Below are positions 1,438 to 6,111 of a DNA stretch of 64,000 bases, in pieces. Source of the DNA: Vulcanisaeta distributa JCM 11216 (GTDB lineage Archaea > Thermoproteota > Thermoprotei > Thermoproteales > Thermocladiaceae); contig NZ_BBBI01000003.1 of the NCBI RefSeq assembly GCF_001315985.1, forward strand, positions 62,001 through 126,000, given 5' to 3'. Numbering within the stretch: the first letter of the stretch is position 1; each line of letters opens with the position of its first letter. The notes under the pieces were generated by a model. It was not told where the DNA came from, searched no databases, and saw only the letters and a program-made list of their open reading frames with translations. The translations under genes and the position numbers were made by a program.

Positions 1438-1929
1438 ATGATTAGTACGTATTTAGAGGGTGCATTAATAACGCTTGGCGTTTTCGCCGTATTATCGGCA
1501 ATAGGAATTATCATAACTAAGGACAACCTGTACGCGGCAATATACCTAGCCATAACGACTGGGTTGGTTGGTGCGGTGTATGGCCTTTTCGGTATAGCCT
1601 ATGGCTTCGTATTAATATACCTAATATTCGTTGGCGCCACAATAACAATTACAATAGTCCTGGCTGCTACGTACAGGAAAATCGAGATTAAGGGTGGCGT
1701 GGGTAAGTCATGGATAGTGCCAATGATACTGTTCATAATCGCTATAGTGGTTGCCTCGGTATCCACGAAATACAATGTGGCGCCAGTCACGGGCCAGTCA
1801 TTAACGGGTTTCACGTCAGCATCGGACGGCCTATTACTAATTGCATTATTGGCGTCACTCCTAATGACGATAATGATTGGATTAATAATGTATTACCTGG
1901 AGGTGAGTGGGGGGGTATGGAGGTCGTGA
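1438..1929 (+). CDS. nuoJ: NADH dehydrogenase-like subunit J (complex I membrane subunit)
   Basis: 163-residue integral membrane protein with about five hydrophobic segments, matching NuoJ/Nqo10, part of the proton-pumping membrane arm of complex I-like oxidoreductases. The stretch VYGLFGIAYGFVLIYLIFVG is the typical third-helix region with the pi-bulge Gly/Tyr pattern. The stop overlaps the start of nuoK, so translation is probably coupled. The GG near the C-terminus comes from a G7 run. Gene order J-K-N continues downstream, which supports the call. Confidence 0.85.
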   Translation: MISTYLEGALITLGVFAVLSAIGIIITKDNLYAAIYLAITTGLVGAVYGLFGIAYGFVLIYLIFVGATITITIVLAATYRKIEIKGGVGKSWIVPMILFIIAIVVASVSTKYNVAPVTGQSLTGFTSASDGLLLIALLASLLMTIMIGLIMYYLEVSGGVWRS

Positions 1930-2248
1930 ATGCGGCCATACTGTACGGGTTCGCATCCATAATACTGATGATAGGCTACTACAGCGCATTGAGGCTAATG
2001 ACCTGATTAGGGTTTTGATATCCCTTGAGCTCATGTTCAATGCAATATTCCTAACCTTAATACCATTATTCGCTGTAAGCCCTGTCATTGCCTTTGGAAT
2101 ACTTATTGTCGTTATTCTCTCATCATCCACGGAATTCATGACGTTAATAATAGCGATAATGGCAATGGATAGAATCAGGAGGTCGGTAAGGGTTGAGGAG
2201 ATTAAGGCTGGTGGTGAGCAGTATGTCGAGACAAAGAGTAATACCTAA
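1917..2248 (+). CDS. nuoK: NADH dehydrogenase-like subunit K, frameshifted
   Basis: NuoK/Nqo11, a small three-helix subunit of the complex I membrane arm. The first part starts MEVVNAAILYGFASIIL; the second part carries the family core NDLIRVLISLELMFNA with the conserved Glu of helix 2, then SSSTEFMTLIIAIM with a second acidic residue. The two halves lie in different frames, joined by a one-base shift near 2000 (TTGAGGCTAATGACC). About 110 residues, normal for NuoK. The ATG at 1917 overlaps the end of nuoJ. The break is probably a sequence error because both halves are fully conserved. Confidence 0.8.
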
Positions 2249-2269
2249 ATTTAGTACCTGGGGTGGTGC

Positions 2270-3564
2270 ATGATGACTATTCCCTACATATACATCCTCC
2301 TCGCCTCAACAGTAATAAACACGGTTGGCACAGCGCCTCTGCTCCTAAGTGAGGGTGCCAGGAGGTATTCCTGGATAGTGCCATTAATATCAATGCTAAT
2401 TCTCCTCATGACCCCCAGATATTCATCTCCTGGTCTACGTGGCTTTCCTCGTGGTTATTGGCATACTTGGATTAATCACGTTAATGAGAGTAAAATCATC
2501 CATAAGAGGCGTTGACTACATGCTCATTTCAATAATGATAATAGCCACGGTATTGGCCCTATACACAAGCAACCTAGCCCTAACACTACTGTCGTTGATG
2601 CTAGTCTCAGCGCCAACATACCTACTGATCCTAATGGGTGACCCAAGCATTAGCATTGAGGTTGGTGTTAAGTACGTGGTCAACATGATAATAGCCACGG
2701 TACTCTTCTTCGTGGGCGCAATAATAATTAGTTCAGGCCCGTCATTAATAACGTACATAATAGGCTTCTCCCTATTACTCCTCGGCCTATCCCTAGAGGT
2801 TGGCGCGGCTCCAATGCATGAGTGGGTGCCCGACGTGTTCACGGCAGGCAACCCAATACCCGTCGCAATAATAGCCTCAATAGCCAAGATAGCCCCCCCA
2901 TTCATTGTTGCCGTGAAGATAACGCTGACCACGATGAGCCTCTATGGGGTATCACCGTACTACCTAGCCTACATAGCCGGCGCCTTCGCAACAATATCGA
3001 TGTTCCTAGGCAACATAGGCGCATTAACAAGTAGGGAGAGTCCGAGAGTCCTCGCCTACTCCTCAATAGCAACATGGGCTATGTAATGGCTGCCTTCGCG
3101 GCAGCAATAATGGGCGCCCAGGAGATGGGGGGGGCAACCCTTGATTTTGCATTTATTGGCTTGTTACTGCAATTGTTCATGAATGCTGTTGGTAAAATGG
3201 GCTTCTTTAACACCGTATTCTCAAAGGGCAACAATGCAGTGAGTACCTGGTTGATATCCCTGGCCTTCATAGGAACGCCACCACTCCTGGGCTTCTGGTC
3301 GAAGCTATACATAATATTGGCGCTGGTTTATGGTAACCTTACCTGGCTAGCGGTTCTCCTTGTCATTAACTCCGTAATCTCAGTGCCTATTACGTGAGGC
3401 TCGCCAGGGAGTTGGGGGGGACTGGTTGGAAGGGTGGGTTGGCCGAGGGCTTGATCATCGTGTTTACAATACTTACGTTATCAACAATAATACCACCCTA
3501 CTGGTTAGTGGTTCCGCTAATTAAAATGAAACTGATCAATTACCTAATACTTAGCCTGAAATGA
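2270..3564 (+). CDS. nuoN: NADH dehydrogenase-like antiporter subunit N, several frameshifts
   Basis: About 430 residues and a dozen hydrophobic segments, of the NuoN/M/L antiporter-like family that forms proton channels in complex I. Conserved parts include MHEWVPDVFTAGNPIPV (family HxWxPDxxxxxPxPV), LAYSSIA-NMGYVMAA and TPPLLGFWSKLYI. Position after J and K and the length favour NuoN. The frame breaks near 2414 (C5 where C4 fits), near 3075 (GCAACATGG where one more A fits), and near 3385 before YYVRLARELG. Extra Pro and Gly residues at C7 (2893) and G8 (3127) runs are probably artefacts. Either of two adjacent ATGs at 2270 and 2273 may be the start. Confidence 0.75.
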
Positions 3565-3597
3565 TATTGCTTAAAATTATCGATTATTTTTAAAACG

Positions 3598-4172
3598 TTG
3601 ATGAGCATCATAAGGGGTGTTTATGAGGGTTTAACGGCCGTCATATACGGCTTAGTACTTGACGTAATACTAAAGGCATTACTTCTTATGGGGGGGTTCA
3701 CGGACTTGGTTAATGATGCGCTTCAGTTGATTGTGGCAACCCTTTGGATTGGTATTGAGATGTTTGGTTGGAATGGAGTCTGCATAGTTAATAGAGGCGT
3801 ATGTAGGTTATCAACGATTTACAGGTACCTAATGTTCATCGCAGTGCCATTACTGGCATTTTCCTACCTACTCTATATGTATGGTAGCGATACCGCGGCT
3901 GCCGTGTTATTCCTAGTAACCGTGAGTACAGTGTTGGGTCTATCGGTGGCCAGCTACATTGGTGCTACATGGTTGTTAATCAATTTAGGAGTAACGTCGG
4001 TAAGGCTGGTGTACTGGTATCAATAATTGCAGTTATAATGTGGTTAACGCTGATACCTGGCGCCATGGAGACCGGCACGGCAATAAACGCCCTGGGCAAC
4101 ACATTAATACTAATAGCCCTACTGCAGGTTAGGAGGAAGTACACGCCAATGGCTAAATTCCGCCGTAAGTGA
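3598..4172 (+). CDS. Unknown multi-pass membrane protein, frameshifted
   Basis: Not recognised. A mostly hydrophobic protein of about 190 residues, with membrane segments near residues 12-30, 40-55, 75-95, 98-120 and a last one after the break (VLVSIIAVIMWLTLIPGAM). The ATG frame stops at 4026, while an overlapping frame to 4172 continues with a membrane helix and a basic tail, so a single-base shift near 3985-4005 probably splits one gene. It follows nuoN by about 30 bases on the same strand and could be co-transcribed, but nothing ties it to complex I. It meets the convergent DsbA-like gene end to end. Confidence 0.5.
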
Positions 4173-4175
4173 GTT

Positions 4176-4735
4176 TTAATAGATATAGAAGTCCTCAATT
4201 ATCTTCGCCAATTTCATAATACCTGGGTAACCAAATATCCCCTGCCCAATATTCCTACTCAAATTGCCAACTATCATCGTTGGTGTACCCGGGGGGGCAC
4301 CCAACTCCTTCGCCACGGACTTAGCTCCATAACCCTCTGAAGCTCCTCATTTACGCAATCGCCACCAGCCTCCGCAACGGCCTCCTCACCCTTCAACTTA
4401 CCGCTCAGGTAAGCCTCGTAATGCCTCTTTAGGACCTCCAGGAAGACCATTGGGTCCCTCCTATAGATACACCTGAAGGTCGCGTGGAGCTTCTCAACAC
4501 CCCTGTGCACCGGGTAATCAACGAAGTAGAGCGATGCCTTACCACTCCTGTACAACTCAACTAGGTAATCACCGGCCTCATCCTCGAGCAGGGCACAGCC
4601 TGGGCAGTACAGGTCATAAAAAATAACAACGAGCAACCTGGGATTTTGAGCCCTAAACCCAAGCCCAACCCTGTCAACCCTCTCCAAAACACCCCCCCTA
4701 ACATCCCTAATCAACCACTCATCAGTCATCAACAC
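4176..4735 (-). CDS. DsbA-like thioredoxin-fold protein, frameshifted
   Basis: Thioredoxin-fold oxidoreductase. The N-terminal half has FYDLYCPGCALLEDE with a CPGC redox motif near residue 45, then an alpha-helical insertion. The open frame ends at 4274, but after a one-base shift near 4322 another frame gives VAKELGAP(P)GTPTMIVG, the cis-Pro loop of DsbA-like proteins, then GYPGIMKLAKIIEDF to a stop at 4176. The extra Pro at a C7 run is probably an artefact. There is no clear signal peptide, so it may act in the cytosol, as many archaeal disulfide enzymes do. Substrate unknown. Confidence 0.7.
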
Positions 4736-4820: not shown

Positions 4821-4864
4821 TTGGGCAGGCAGAGTGGAGGTAAGAATAATCTCACCTCCACTCT
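4821..4864 (+). repeat. Left 44-bp inverted repeat (with internal palindrome)
   Basis: These 44 bases are the exact reverse complement of 5341-5384. The repeat has its own palindrome: AGAGTGGAGGT at 4831-4841 and ACCTCCACTCT at 4854-4864, separated by 12 A/T-rich bases. It begins TTGGGCAGGC on the outer side. The pair encloses the AbrB-like gene. No target-site duplication is evident outside the repeats. It could be a terminal repeat of a small element or a pair of operator sites. Confidence 0.9.
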
Positions 4865-4888
4865 GCATATCCAAGTCTCGGCCTCTGC

Positions 4889-5320
4889 ATGATGGTCAGG
4901 GATTTAAGGCGGCTTTCCTGGCTATACTGTATGACTGTGCTTGATATTGGTTTTGGTAATGCTGTTTGGGTTAGGGCTAGGGTTAGGATTTATGAGAGTA
5001 GTAGGAGGGTTGGTGATAGGGAGTATAAGGTGATTAATGCGTACATACCGTTGCCGACCACCGTTAAGTACTTTGGCTTCAGGAATGGGGCGCCAGTGAG
5101 GATTTGGTTGTTTAAGGACAATAGGTACATGGCCTATGAGGGAAACATAAGGAGGATACACAAGTCGCAGTACGGTGCGAGCCTACCAACCACCGTAATA
5201 GAGAACCTAGGCTTGAATAATAAGGACGAGGTTGAGGCATTGATATACCTGGAGCTGAGTGAGAGGGAGGGTGGTGAGGAGATTAAGGAATTGAGTGAGG
5301 GCGAGCAGGATGTTGAGTAA
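4889..5320 (+). CDS. Two-domain AbrB/SpoVT-like protein inside inverted repeats
   Basis: 143 residues, probably DNA-binding. Two similar segments resemble the AbrB/SpoVT swapped-hairpin fold: VINAYIPLPTTVKYFGF...VRIWLF near residues 50-75 and YGASLPTTVIENLGLNNKDEV near residues 94-115. Both share the LPTTV core, in the place where AbrB proteins have LPkxv followed by a Gly-rich turn. The C-terminal tail is acidic. The gene fills the space between two perfect 44-bp inverted repeats, so it may bind those palindromes and regulate itself, or be cargo of a small mobile element. A second ATG at 4931 is a possible start. Fold call is moderate; role is inference. Confidence 0.6.
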   Translation: MMVRDLRRLSWLYCMTVLDIGFGNAVWVRARVRIYESSRRVGDREYKVINAYIPLPTTVKYFGFRNGAPVRIWLFKDNRYMAYEGNIRRIHKSQYGASLPTTVIENLGLNNKDEVEALIYLELSEREGGEEIKELSEGEQDVE

Positions 5321-5340
5321 TTGAACATTTTTGGACCTGA

Positions 5341-5384
5341 AGAGTGGAGGTGAGATTATTCTTACCTCCACTCTGCCTGCCCAA
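5341..5384 (-). repeat. Right 44-bp inverted repeat
   Basis: Exact reverse complement of 4821-4864, including the inner palindrome (AGAGTGGAGGT at 5341-5351 and ACCTCCACTCT at 5364-5374) and the outer GCCTGCCCAA end. It lies 20 bases after the stop of the AbrB-like gene. Perfect identity over 44 bases implies a recent origin, conversion, or selection on a binding site. Confidence 0.9.
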
Positions 5385-5492: not shown

Positions 5493-6026
5493 ATGTACAT
5501 AGTCACTGGCTATACACGCGGTAAGTCCTCGAGGAGCTTTGAGGGTAGATATAAGGGTGTTGATGATGTTAAGGATGTCCATGAGACCCTAGTCATTAAG
5601 TTGAGGAGGGATTTGCAGTACTTCGTGGTTACGAATGATGATAGTGACCTTGTTCTTTGGACCTTTGATATACCTGGTTATGAGACCCACATATACTCAA
5701 TGATTAAGGAAACAGCAACACTAATGCTATGCCCAAGGATTGACAACTCCACATACCTACTACCCGACGCGTCAATGCTGGGCGACCTAGCAAGTGCCCT
5801 ATCACGCCATGAGTATAGGGACATGGTGTACTTCGTGAAGCCACTAAATAGGGAATTCGTGATCAAGGCTTTGAGGGCTACCTACGACTCGGCAATGGCC
5901 ATAATCATGAAAATACTGATGAGCACGAGCAGGGCAAGGGGGGGCATCACACTGAGGGTTCTCATGGATAAGGTCGACTACGTCGAAAAATCAATAAGTA
6001 GGGCATTGGGGCATGTGGAGGGATAA
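5493..6026 (+). CDS. Unknown protein, about 177 residues
   Basis: Not recognised. The protein is mixed alpha/beta with no membrane segments once the start is placed at 5493 after the TATA box. Notable parts are VIKLRRDLQYFVVTNDDSDLVLWT and a basic helical C-terminal third ending in KVDYVEKSISRALGHVEG. It lies just outside the right inverted repeat, in the accessory stretch before tRNA-Thr. An RGG at the G7 run near 5940 probably has one extra Gly. It overlaps a 32-codon frame at 6013 on the same strand. Confidence 0.45.
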   Translation: MYIVTGYTRGKSSRSFEGRYKGVDDVKDVHETLVIKLRRDLQYFVVTNDDSDLVLWTFDIPGYETHIYSMIKETATLMLCPRIDNSTYLLPDASMLGDLASALSRHEYRDMVYFVKPLNREFVIKALRATYDSAMAIIMKILMSTSRARGGITLRVLMDKVDYVEKSISRALGHVEG

Positions 6027-6111
6027 GGGTTATGACATAGACTCCTCGGGTATTGAAAGTGCAATAGGCAGTGTTAGGGAGGTGCTTAGGAGGAGGGTTG
6101 GTAAAAACTAA
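6013..6111 (+). CDS. Possible small ORF (32 codons), perhaps a gene fragment
   Basis: An ATG-started frame overlaps the end of the previous gene by 14 bases and stops at 6111. It contains GYDIDSSGIESAIGSVREVL, which resembles GYGIDRQVIRAVIEELRIRY in the open stretch just upstream of the SWIM gene. The two may be duplicated or displaced parts of one N-terminal region. Too short to call with confidence. Confidence 0.2.
   Translation: MWRDKGYDIDSSGIESAIGSVREVLRRRVGKN

Follow-up and report, generated by a model that had tools for sequence, protein, structure and literature searches.

A family of 54-bp dyad sites that accompanies an AbrB-like protein and P225 and coincides with chromosome breakpoints in Vulcanisaeta

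Introduction

In the 64,000-nucleotide stretch of Vulcanisaeta distributa JCM 11216 DNA analysed here (the window; its genome is G000), a gene for an AbrB-like protein is enclosed by long inverted repeats. A preliminary description of the locus had suggested self-regulation, a partition-like or looping site, or a very small mobile cassette whose cargo is the protein that binds its ends. Which of these, if any, do the repeats represent? Here we address this question by comparing the locus with those of other genomes of the genus (G000–G011), family, order and class. Gene names are our own readings of the translations, except where a Pfam match is cited.

Results

The inverted repeats of the window locus

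The two arms (Table 1) are complementary over 94% of their 54 nt (51/54) and stand 456 nt apart; they share 44 consecutive identical bases (4821–4864 against 5341–5384), so the 44-bp inverted repeats first reported round the AbrB-like gene are real. Each arm is itself a near-perfect palindrome of the form AGAGTGGAGGT-N12-ACCTCCACTCT, and the 11-bp palindrome with its 12-base spacer was thus also correctly described, as were the four exact occurrences of AGAGTGGAGGT in the window. With up to one mismatch AGAGTGGAGGT matches six times, against 0.96 expected, and none of 100 shuffles reached six. The repeat core occurs four times in G000, three times on the contig of the window and once on another contig; of the two copies beyond the locus, the one on the contig of the window lies 71–124 bp to the left of the first base of the window. 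The dyad extends beyond 34 bp, in that terminal TTGG and CCAA are conserved, giving a total of 54 bp.

Table 1 Features of the AbrB-like locus, in window positions
Feature	Position	Strand
Left-hand 54-bp dyad site (type A), preceding the AbrB-like gene; in G000 also the junction to the thioredoxin/nuo block	4821..4874	.
AbrB-like protein containing LPTTV twice; reading frame open from 4889, conserved from ~4931	4931..5320	+
Right-hand 54-bp dyad site (type A), after the 3' end of the AbrB-like gene and before P225	5331..5384	.
P225-A, the sites' constant protein partner; predicted core resembling Cas2/PaaX, with a helical bundle	5493..6026	+

The frame between the arms is open to 5320, and homologues are conserved from about the ATG at 4931 onwards. 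Both reported LPTTV units are present, and the gene has a dN/dS of 0.04–0.13 in all ten pairs of five genomes, indicating purifying selection. Homology to P225-A continues in another frame to ~6108, a frameshift that is possibly an assembly error. The nuo, thioredoxin and P225 homologies (window 1438–4172, 4274–4735 and 5493–6108) are likewise split by frameshifts in G000 and several sister drafts, possibly through assembly errors at runs of G or C.

A family of sites with several types

The arms belong to a wider family with the consensus TTGG-N6-AGAGT-N24-ACTCT-N6-CCAA. With up to two mismatches there are one to nine sites per genome in 10 of the 25 family genomes (Vulcanisaeta and Caldivirga), and the pattern occurs in 11 of 45 order genomes, compared with 1 of 45 for a reversed-pattern control. 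The sole match outside the family (G040, two mismatches) looks like a chance occurrence. Allowing up to three mismatches, 7 of the 12 genus genomes contain the core pattern.

Vulcanisaeta has two types of site, A (AGAGTGGAGGT) and B (AGAGTCGCCGT), which differ in their inner bases; Caldivirga has a third, type C, and Thermocladium (G022) a 50-bp variant with a shorter centre (spacer of 8 as against 12). Across 53 sites with up to three mismatches (22 A, 20 B and 11 C), TTGG and AGAGT are conserved, as are the inner bases in types A and B, and the two halves of a site disagree at most N6 positions. An RNA hairpin or terminator was considered as the conserved entity and rejected, since at most N6 positions the arms vary independently of each other and do not pair. 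In six of eight Caldivirga loci full sites are accompanied by single inward-facing half-sites 88–110 bp away (L119 and L120 do not fit this arrangement), and the Caldivirga sites sit in dispersed repeats of ~160–250 bp, several of which end in inward half-sites. A viral origin was rejected: no relatives of P225 or of the AbrB-like protein emerged from a pattern scan, and viral contigs contained no exact site.

The sites go with P225 and the AbrB-like protein

Members of the P225 family were found in 10 of 81 class genomes, nine of which carry exact 54-bp sites, the tenth being G022 with its 50-bp variant; exact sites were found only in genomes with P225. When one genome per species was scanned with a peptide pattern, P225 turned up at eight loci, all of them in Vulcanisaeta, Caldivirga or Thermocladium. 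Since 15 of the 25 family genomes have no P225, the protein is not essential. Each of six Vulcanisaeta genomes has two copies, one near type A and one near type B sites, although in G005 the nearest element upstream of P225-B is only a half-site.

The AbrB-like gene has matches in 12 of the 25 family genomes, namely those with P225 plus G008, where the copy is broken, and G018, where a weak match contains stops. In G012, G013, G015 and G022 it is divergent to the adjacent P225. Two genomes appear to be natural losses: in G004, where neither gene was found, and in G008, where no P225 was found in the draft, degenerate but recognisable sites are still in place. The preliminary interpretation is supported in part: the repeats are a conserved and functional-looking family of sites going with the AbrB-like protein.

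P225 has no significant Pfam match and, in particular, no recombinase domain, and no catalytic or NTPase domain was recognised in P225 or the AbrB-like protein, including by Pfam ATPase matches. In the predicted structure of P225 the N-terminal 52 residues, conserved but modelled at low confidence, are accompanied by a C-terminal three-helix bundle. The best Foldseek matches are the PaaX repressor (8a39) and Cas2 (5zyf and others), none with an E-value below 0.001; of the first 13 rows (E 0.05–0.33), six are titled PaaX or Cas2 and two CRISPR proteins. Two of the 13, 2ivy and 3exc, we take to be Cas2. A VIA-align search with P225 was set aside, its list being filled by unrelated helical bundles that match the bundle of P225. 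Against PDB sequences the P225 profile gave three weak matches (best E 0.043) and the AbrB-like profile none. The AbrB-like protein of the window had no match to PF04014 at E up to 1; its Caldivirga homologues scored 19.1 and 23.3 bits, below the Pfam cut-off of 24.7 bits.

Several other genes lie near sites. One gene next to a type B site in G001, encoding an AbrB-type protein of 112 aa, was taken as a coincidence; it belongs to a duplicated family with 2–13 matches per genome, fragments included, in all 12 genus genomes. Coiled-coil proteins, and in G012 an Mrr_cat endonuclease-like protein, occur near sites in two genera (L103 4905–5765; L030 1886–2860; L028 184–816); the coiled-coil nuclease-like proteins were rejected as partners, being present in several copies and not constant. 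A HepT-like/nucleotidyltransferase pair (PF01934, PF18765) lies near type B sites (L103 3711–4515). ATPase_2 genes also occur near some sites: G000 has a second site-gene-site unit, in which an ATPase_2 gene (336 aa, PF01637, E 1.3e-39; L108 5133–6143) has type B sites 10 and 85 bp away on its two sides, and the similar place in G002 (L107) holds only short ORFs.

Rearrangement endpoints lie at sites

In G001, G002, G003 and G005, position alpha lies between a DUF998 gene and thioredoxin, which is followed by nuo and BtpA and then by site beta; elsewhere in these genomes the order is ITPase, gamma, AbrB, delta, P225, SWIM. In G000 and G006, DUF998, a site and ITPase adjoin, and the series from BtpA to thioredoxin is followed by a site, the AbrB gene in flipped orientation, a site, P225 and SWIM. 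These orders can be read as a single inversion between alpha and gamma, a distance of 338 kb in G001, with the AbrB cassette flipped in addition; the two inversion junctions lie on separate contigs because G000 and G006 are drafts. The arrangement of DUF998 next to ITPase is also present in G004 and G008. In a DNA tree of the thioredoxin–nuoN segment, G000 and G006 group with G001 and G002 (support 86) and with G005 (93), apart from G004 and G008. This state would therefore have changed at least twice on that tree, whose deep nodes are weak (54 and 63) and which, as a single DNA segment, may differ from the species tree.

The cassette itself is flipped in G000 and G006 relative to the other four genomes. 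Its two sites share a 12-base spacer in all six genomes; the order of the spacers is direct where the cassette is unflipped (four genomes) and inverted where it is flipped (two). Type B sites behave likewise, in that one site of G002 joins segments lying beside two different type B sites in G001, and one segment is inverted between G000 and G003. Over 24 loci in six genomes, 116 of 228 interior synteny-block ends fell within 150 bp of a site, compared with 4.6% for random positions in the same loci, a count in which the loci were picked round sites, the ends are not independent and some mark diverged spacers only. The N6 arms generally remain linked to their own flanks, which places the exchange inside the site, and the retention of the same flanks by sites throughout most of the genus indicates that it is rare.

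Sites are also lost or worn. Alpha is no longer recognisable in G003 and G005; in G003 it has eroded with gene spacing unchanged, in G005 the spacing is shorter, and in neither was it cleanly excised. Even where the genes are present, beta carries two mismatches in G003 and three in G005, and several type B sites of G000 and G006 carry two.

Between G001 and each of G000, G006 and G002, AbrB had the lowest dS of 17 genes: 0.34 (next 0.53), 0.36 (next 0.57) and 0.36 (next 0.38), respectively. Over the same comparisons dS was 1.07–1.21 for P225A and 1.30–1.80 for ITPase; for thioredoxin, the other neighbour of the cassette in G000 and G006, it was 0.53 and 0.66. Relative to G003 (0.70) and G005 (0.62), AbrB was among the lowest and not the lowest. 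The low values hint at exchange of the cassette between lineages, and could instead reflect codon constraint.

In G001, type A and type B sites lie on either side of the only Cdc6_C match (1.4 kb), within ~0.4 Mb (2015–2354 kb and 288–394 kb), and the AbrB locus is ~20 kb from cdc6 in G001 and G003. Nearness to cdc6 was nevertheless rejected as a general property of the sites, those of G012 lying opposite cdc6.

Tyrosine recombinases were considered as an obligate partner and likewise rejected. No PF00589 match was found in G003, a single-contig genome that carries both site types. Such matches occur in six of the 12 genus genomes, five of the six with both types; these loci (L073–L083) are mutually similar over ~1.4 kb, like a dispersed element, and none contains a site.

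The AbrB-like gene as a cassette

The idea of a cassette is borne out to the extent that two of the six genomes (G000 and G006) carry the site-gene-site unit in reverse orientation to its flank; that it is a self-contained mobile element finds no support. A single AbrB locus was found per genome, always beside P225. Searching related genomes for the repeat with and without the gene recovered the family alongside the gene and at other, conserved places where the gene is absent; type B sites adjoin a P225 paralogue with no AbrB homologue detected beside them, and the Caldivirga sites lie outside the AbrB and P225 pair. Neither a target duplication nor an empty single site came to light. In G007 and G009, which are without the whole insert, ITPase is followed directly by SWIM with no site at the junction, and the G014 contig ends at the place examined for an empty site.

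Discussion

We give about even weight to the reading that the repeats belong to a dedicated protein–DNA site system, whose sites pair and, on rare occasions, exchange strands. On this reading the two repeats would be copies of a symmetrical 54-bp protein-binding site that recurs in the chromosome and has genes of its own, one for the AbrB-like protein, a putative cradle-loop-barrel protein, and one for P225, with its predicted Cas2/PaaX fold. Every P225 paralogue would be matched to a site type, A or B in Vulcanisaeta and C in Caldivirga, the proteins may bind the constant TTGG and AGAGT steps plus the type-specific inner bases, and the bound proteins may bring sites of the same type together, with occasional strand exchange between paired sites flipping whatever lies between them. 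We infer the binding by the AbrB-like protein and P225, the pairing and the agent of cutting and joining; that the cell would benefit through chromosome organisation is a guess. The family looks like a protein-bound site under moderate constraint: exact sites survive between genomes whose neighbouring genes have a dS of 0.4–1.8 and are found only with P225, sites have decayed in two genomes without intact genes, and some are worn even where the genes are present. The position of rearrangement endpoints at sites favours pairing and exchange. Counting against this reading are the lack of a recognised catalytic or NTPase domain in either protein, the worn sites in genomes that have the genes, the rarity of exchange, the dispensability of P225 and the position of the G012 sites opposite cdc6.

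Programmed site-specific inversion, in which P225 or an unlinked recombinase flips the AbrB cassette at the 34-bp core as a switch and the larger inversions are by-products, would account for the flipped cassette of G000 and G006, for the spacer order that flips along with it in all six genomes, for a low AbrB dS between G001 and G000, G006 or G002, as if the cassette had been exchanged, and for the second site-gene-site unit of G000. We nevertheless consider it unlikely: P225 is without a recombinase domain, G003 yielded no PF00589 match and the loci with such matches elsewhere resemble one another and contain no site, the close relatives G000/G006 and G001/G002 each share one orientation, and the dS of AbrB is not the lowest relative to G003 and G005. 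We regard with similar scepticism ordinary autoregulation, in which the sites are operators of the AbrB-like/P225 pair and the rearrangements reflect infrequent homologous recombination at short repeats. The symmetry would suit a dimeric regulator, and a site lies 103–109 bp upstream of P225-A in all six Vulcanisaeta genomes, 129–130 bp upstream of P225-B in the four of six that could be measured, and, in G000 and G001, 54–56 bp ahead of the AbrB start. However, beta and gamma are located where genes converge or at their 3' ends, other sites are far from both genes, and in G012 the sites are 3' of both, with none between the divergent pair; a purely regulatory role is disfavoured by the sites at 3' ends of genes and, in Caldivirga, by sites away from the promoter region. 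Moreover, identity at the recombining sites extends over only ~44 bp, compared with the 500 bp or more for which recombination is reported in another archaeon, Thermococcus kodakarensis (PMC5495485).

More improbable still is that the sites are relics of a family of small transposable elements or MITEs with half-sites as ends. The dispersed repeats of Caldivirga, several bounded by inward half-sites, have the look of such elements, but site positions are conserved between Vulcanisaeta species, alpha eroded in G003 without a change in gene spacing, and neither a transposase nor a target duplication was noticed, nor an exact site in viral contigs.

The proposed system of pairing sites invites comparison with several known ones. 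SegAB of the Sulfolobales combines a 13-bp motif, TCTAGASTCTAGA, with the ribbon-helix-helix protein SegB and a ParA-type ATPase; its sites are several chromosomal palindromes clustered near the segAB genes and oriC1 (PMC12284271). The two are alike in being archaeal, with palindromic sites in several chromosomal copies, and differ in the 54-bp dyad found here and in the AbrB-like/P225 gene pair having no Pfam ATPase match. XerA acts in dimer resolution at dif, two 11-nt inverted repeats round a 6-nt spacer (PMC8371274). The likeness extends to two such repeats round a spacer and to recombination, here proposed, at the site; however, the four sites of G000 are 11-12-11 (with a spacer of 8 in Thermocladium) as against 11-6-11 in dif, and a tyrosine recombinase is not present in every genome with sites, none having been found in G003. 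In Thermococcus, the plasmid-borne tyrosine integrase of pTN3 underlies large recurrent chromosome inversions with endpoints in tRNA genes (PMC5495485); inversions in the two cases are similarly large, recurrent and anchored at specific sites, which here are intergenic dyads linked to unrelated proteins. From the AbrB/SpoVT and RIFT-barrel proteins (PHS018, 2glw) the AbrB-like protein is set apart by a score below the PF04014 cut-off, fused halves and linkage to a DNA site family of its own. P225, finally, resembles PaaX (8a39) and Cas2 (5zyf) as its best Foldseek matches, and differs in its conserved, low-confidence N-terminal region and C-terminal three-helix bundle, with no E-value below 0.001.

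In titles and abstract beginnings of the literature on these organisms, sites and rearrangements, no description of the sites was found. On that basis the site family, its types with paralogous partners and its link to inversions appear to be new, the folds being already known. A stronger form of our favoured reading is possible but doubtful, namely a previously unknown archaeal chromosome system in which Cas2/PaaX-fold and cradle-loop-barrel proteins would bind 54-bp sites resembling centromeres or recombination sites, in matched sets that exclude one another, one set per paralogue, and would physically pair and flip the chromosome segments between them.

The findings provide a candidate protein–DNA pair for the recurrent chromosome inversions of a group of archaea in which little is known of how chromosomes are handled, together with natural cases of loss and paralogous pairs with diverged site specificity. 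If P225 is indeed the active partner, it would represent an unexpected role for a Cas2-like fold.
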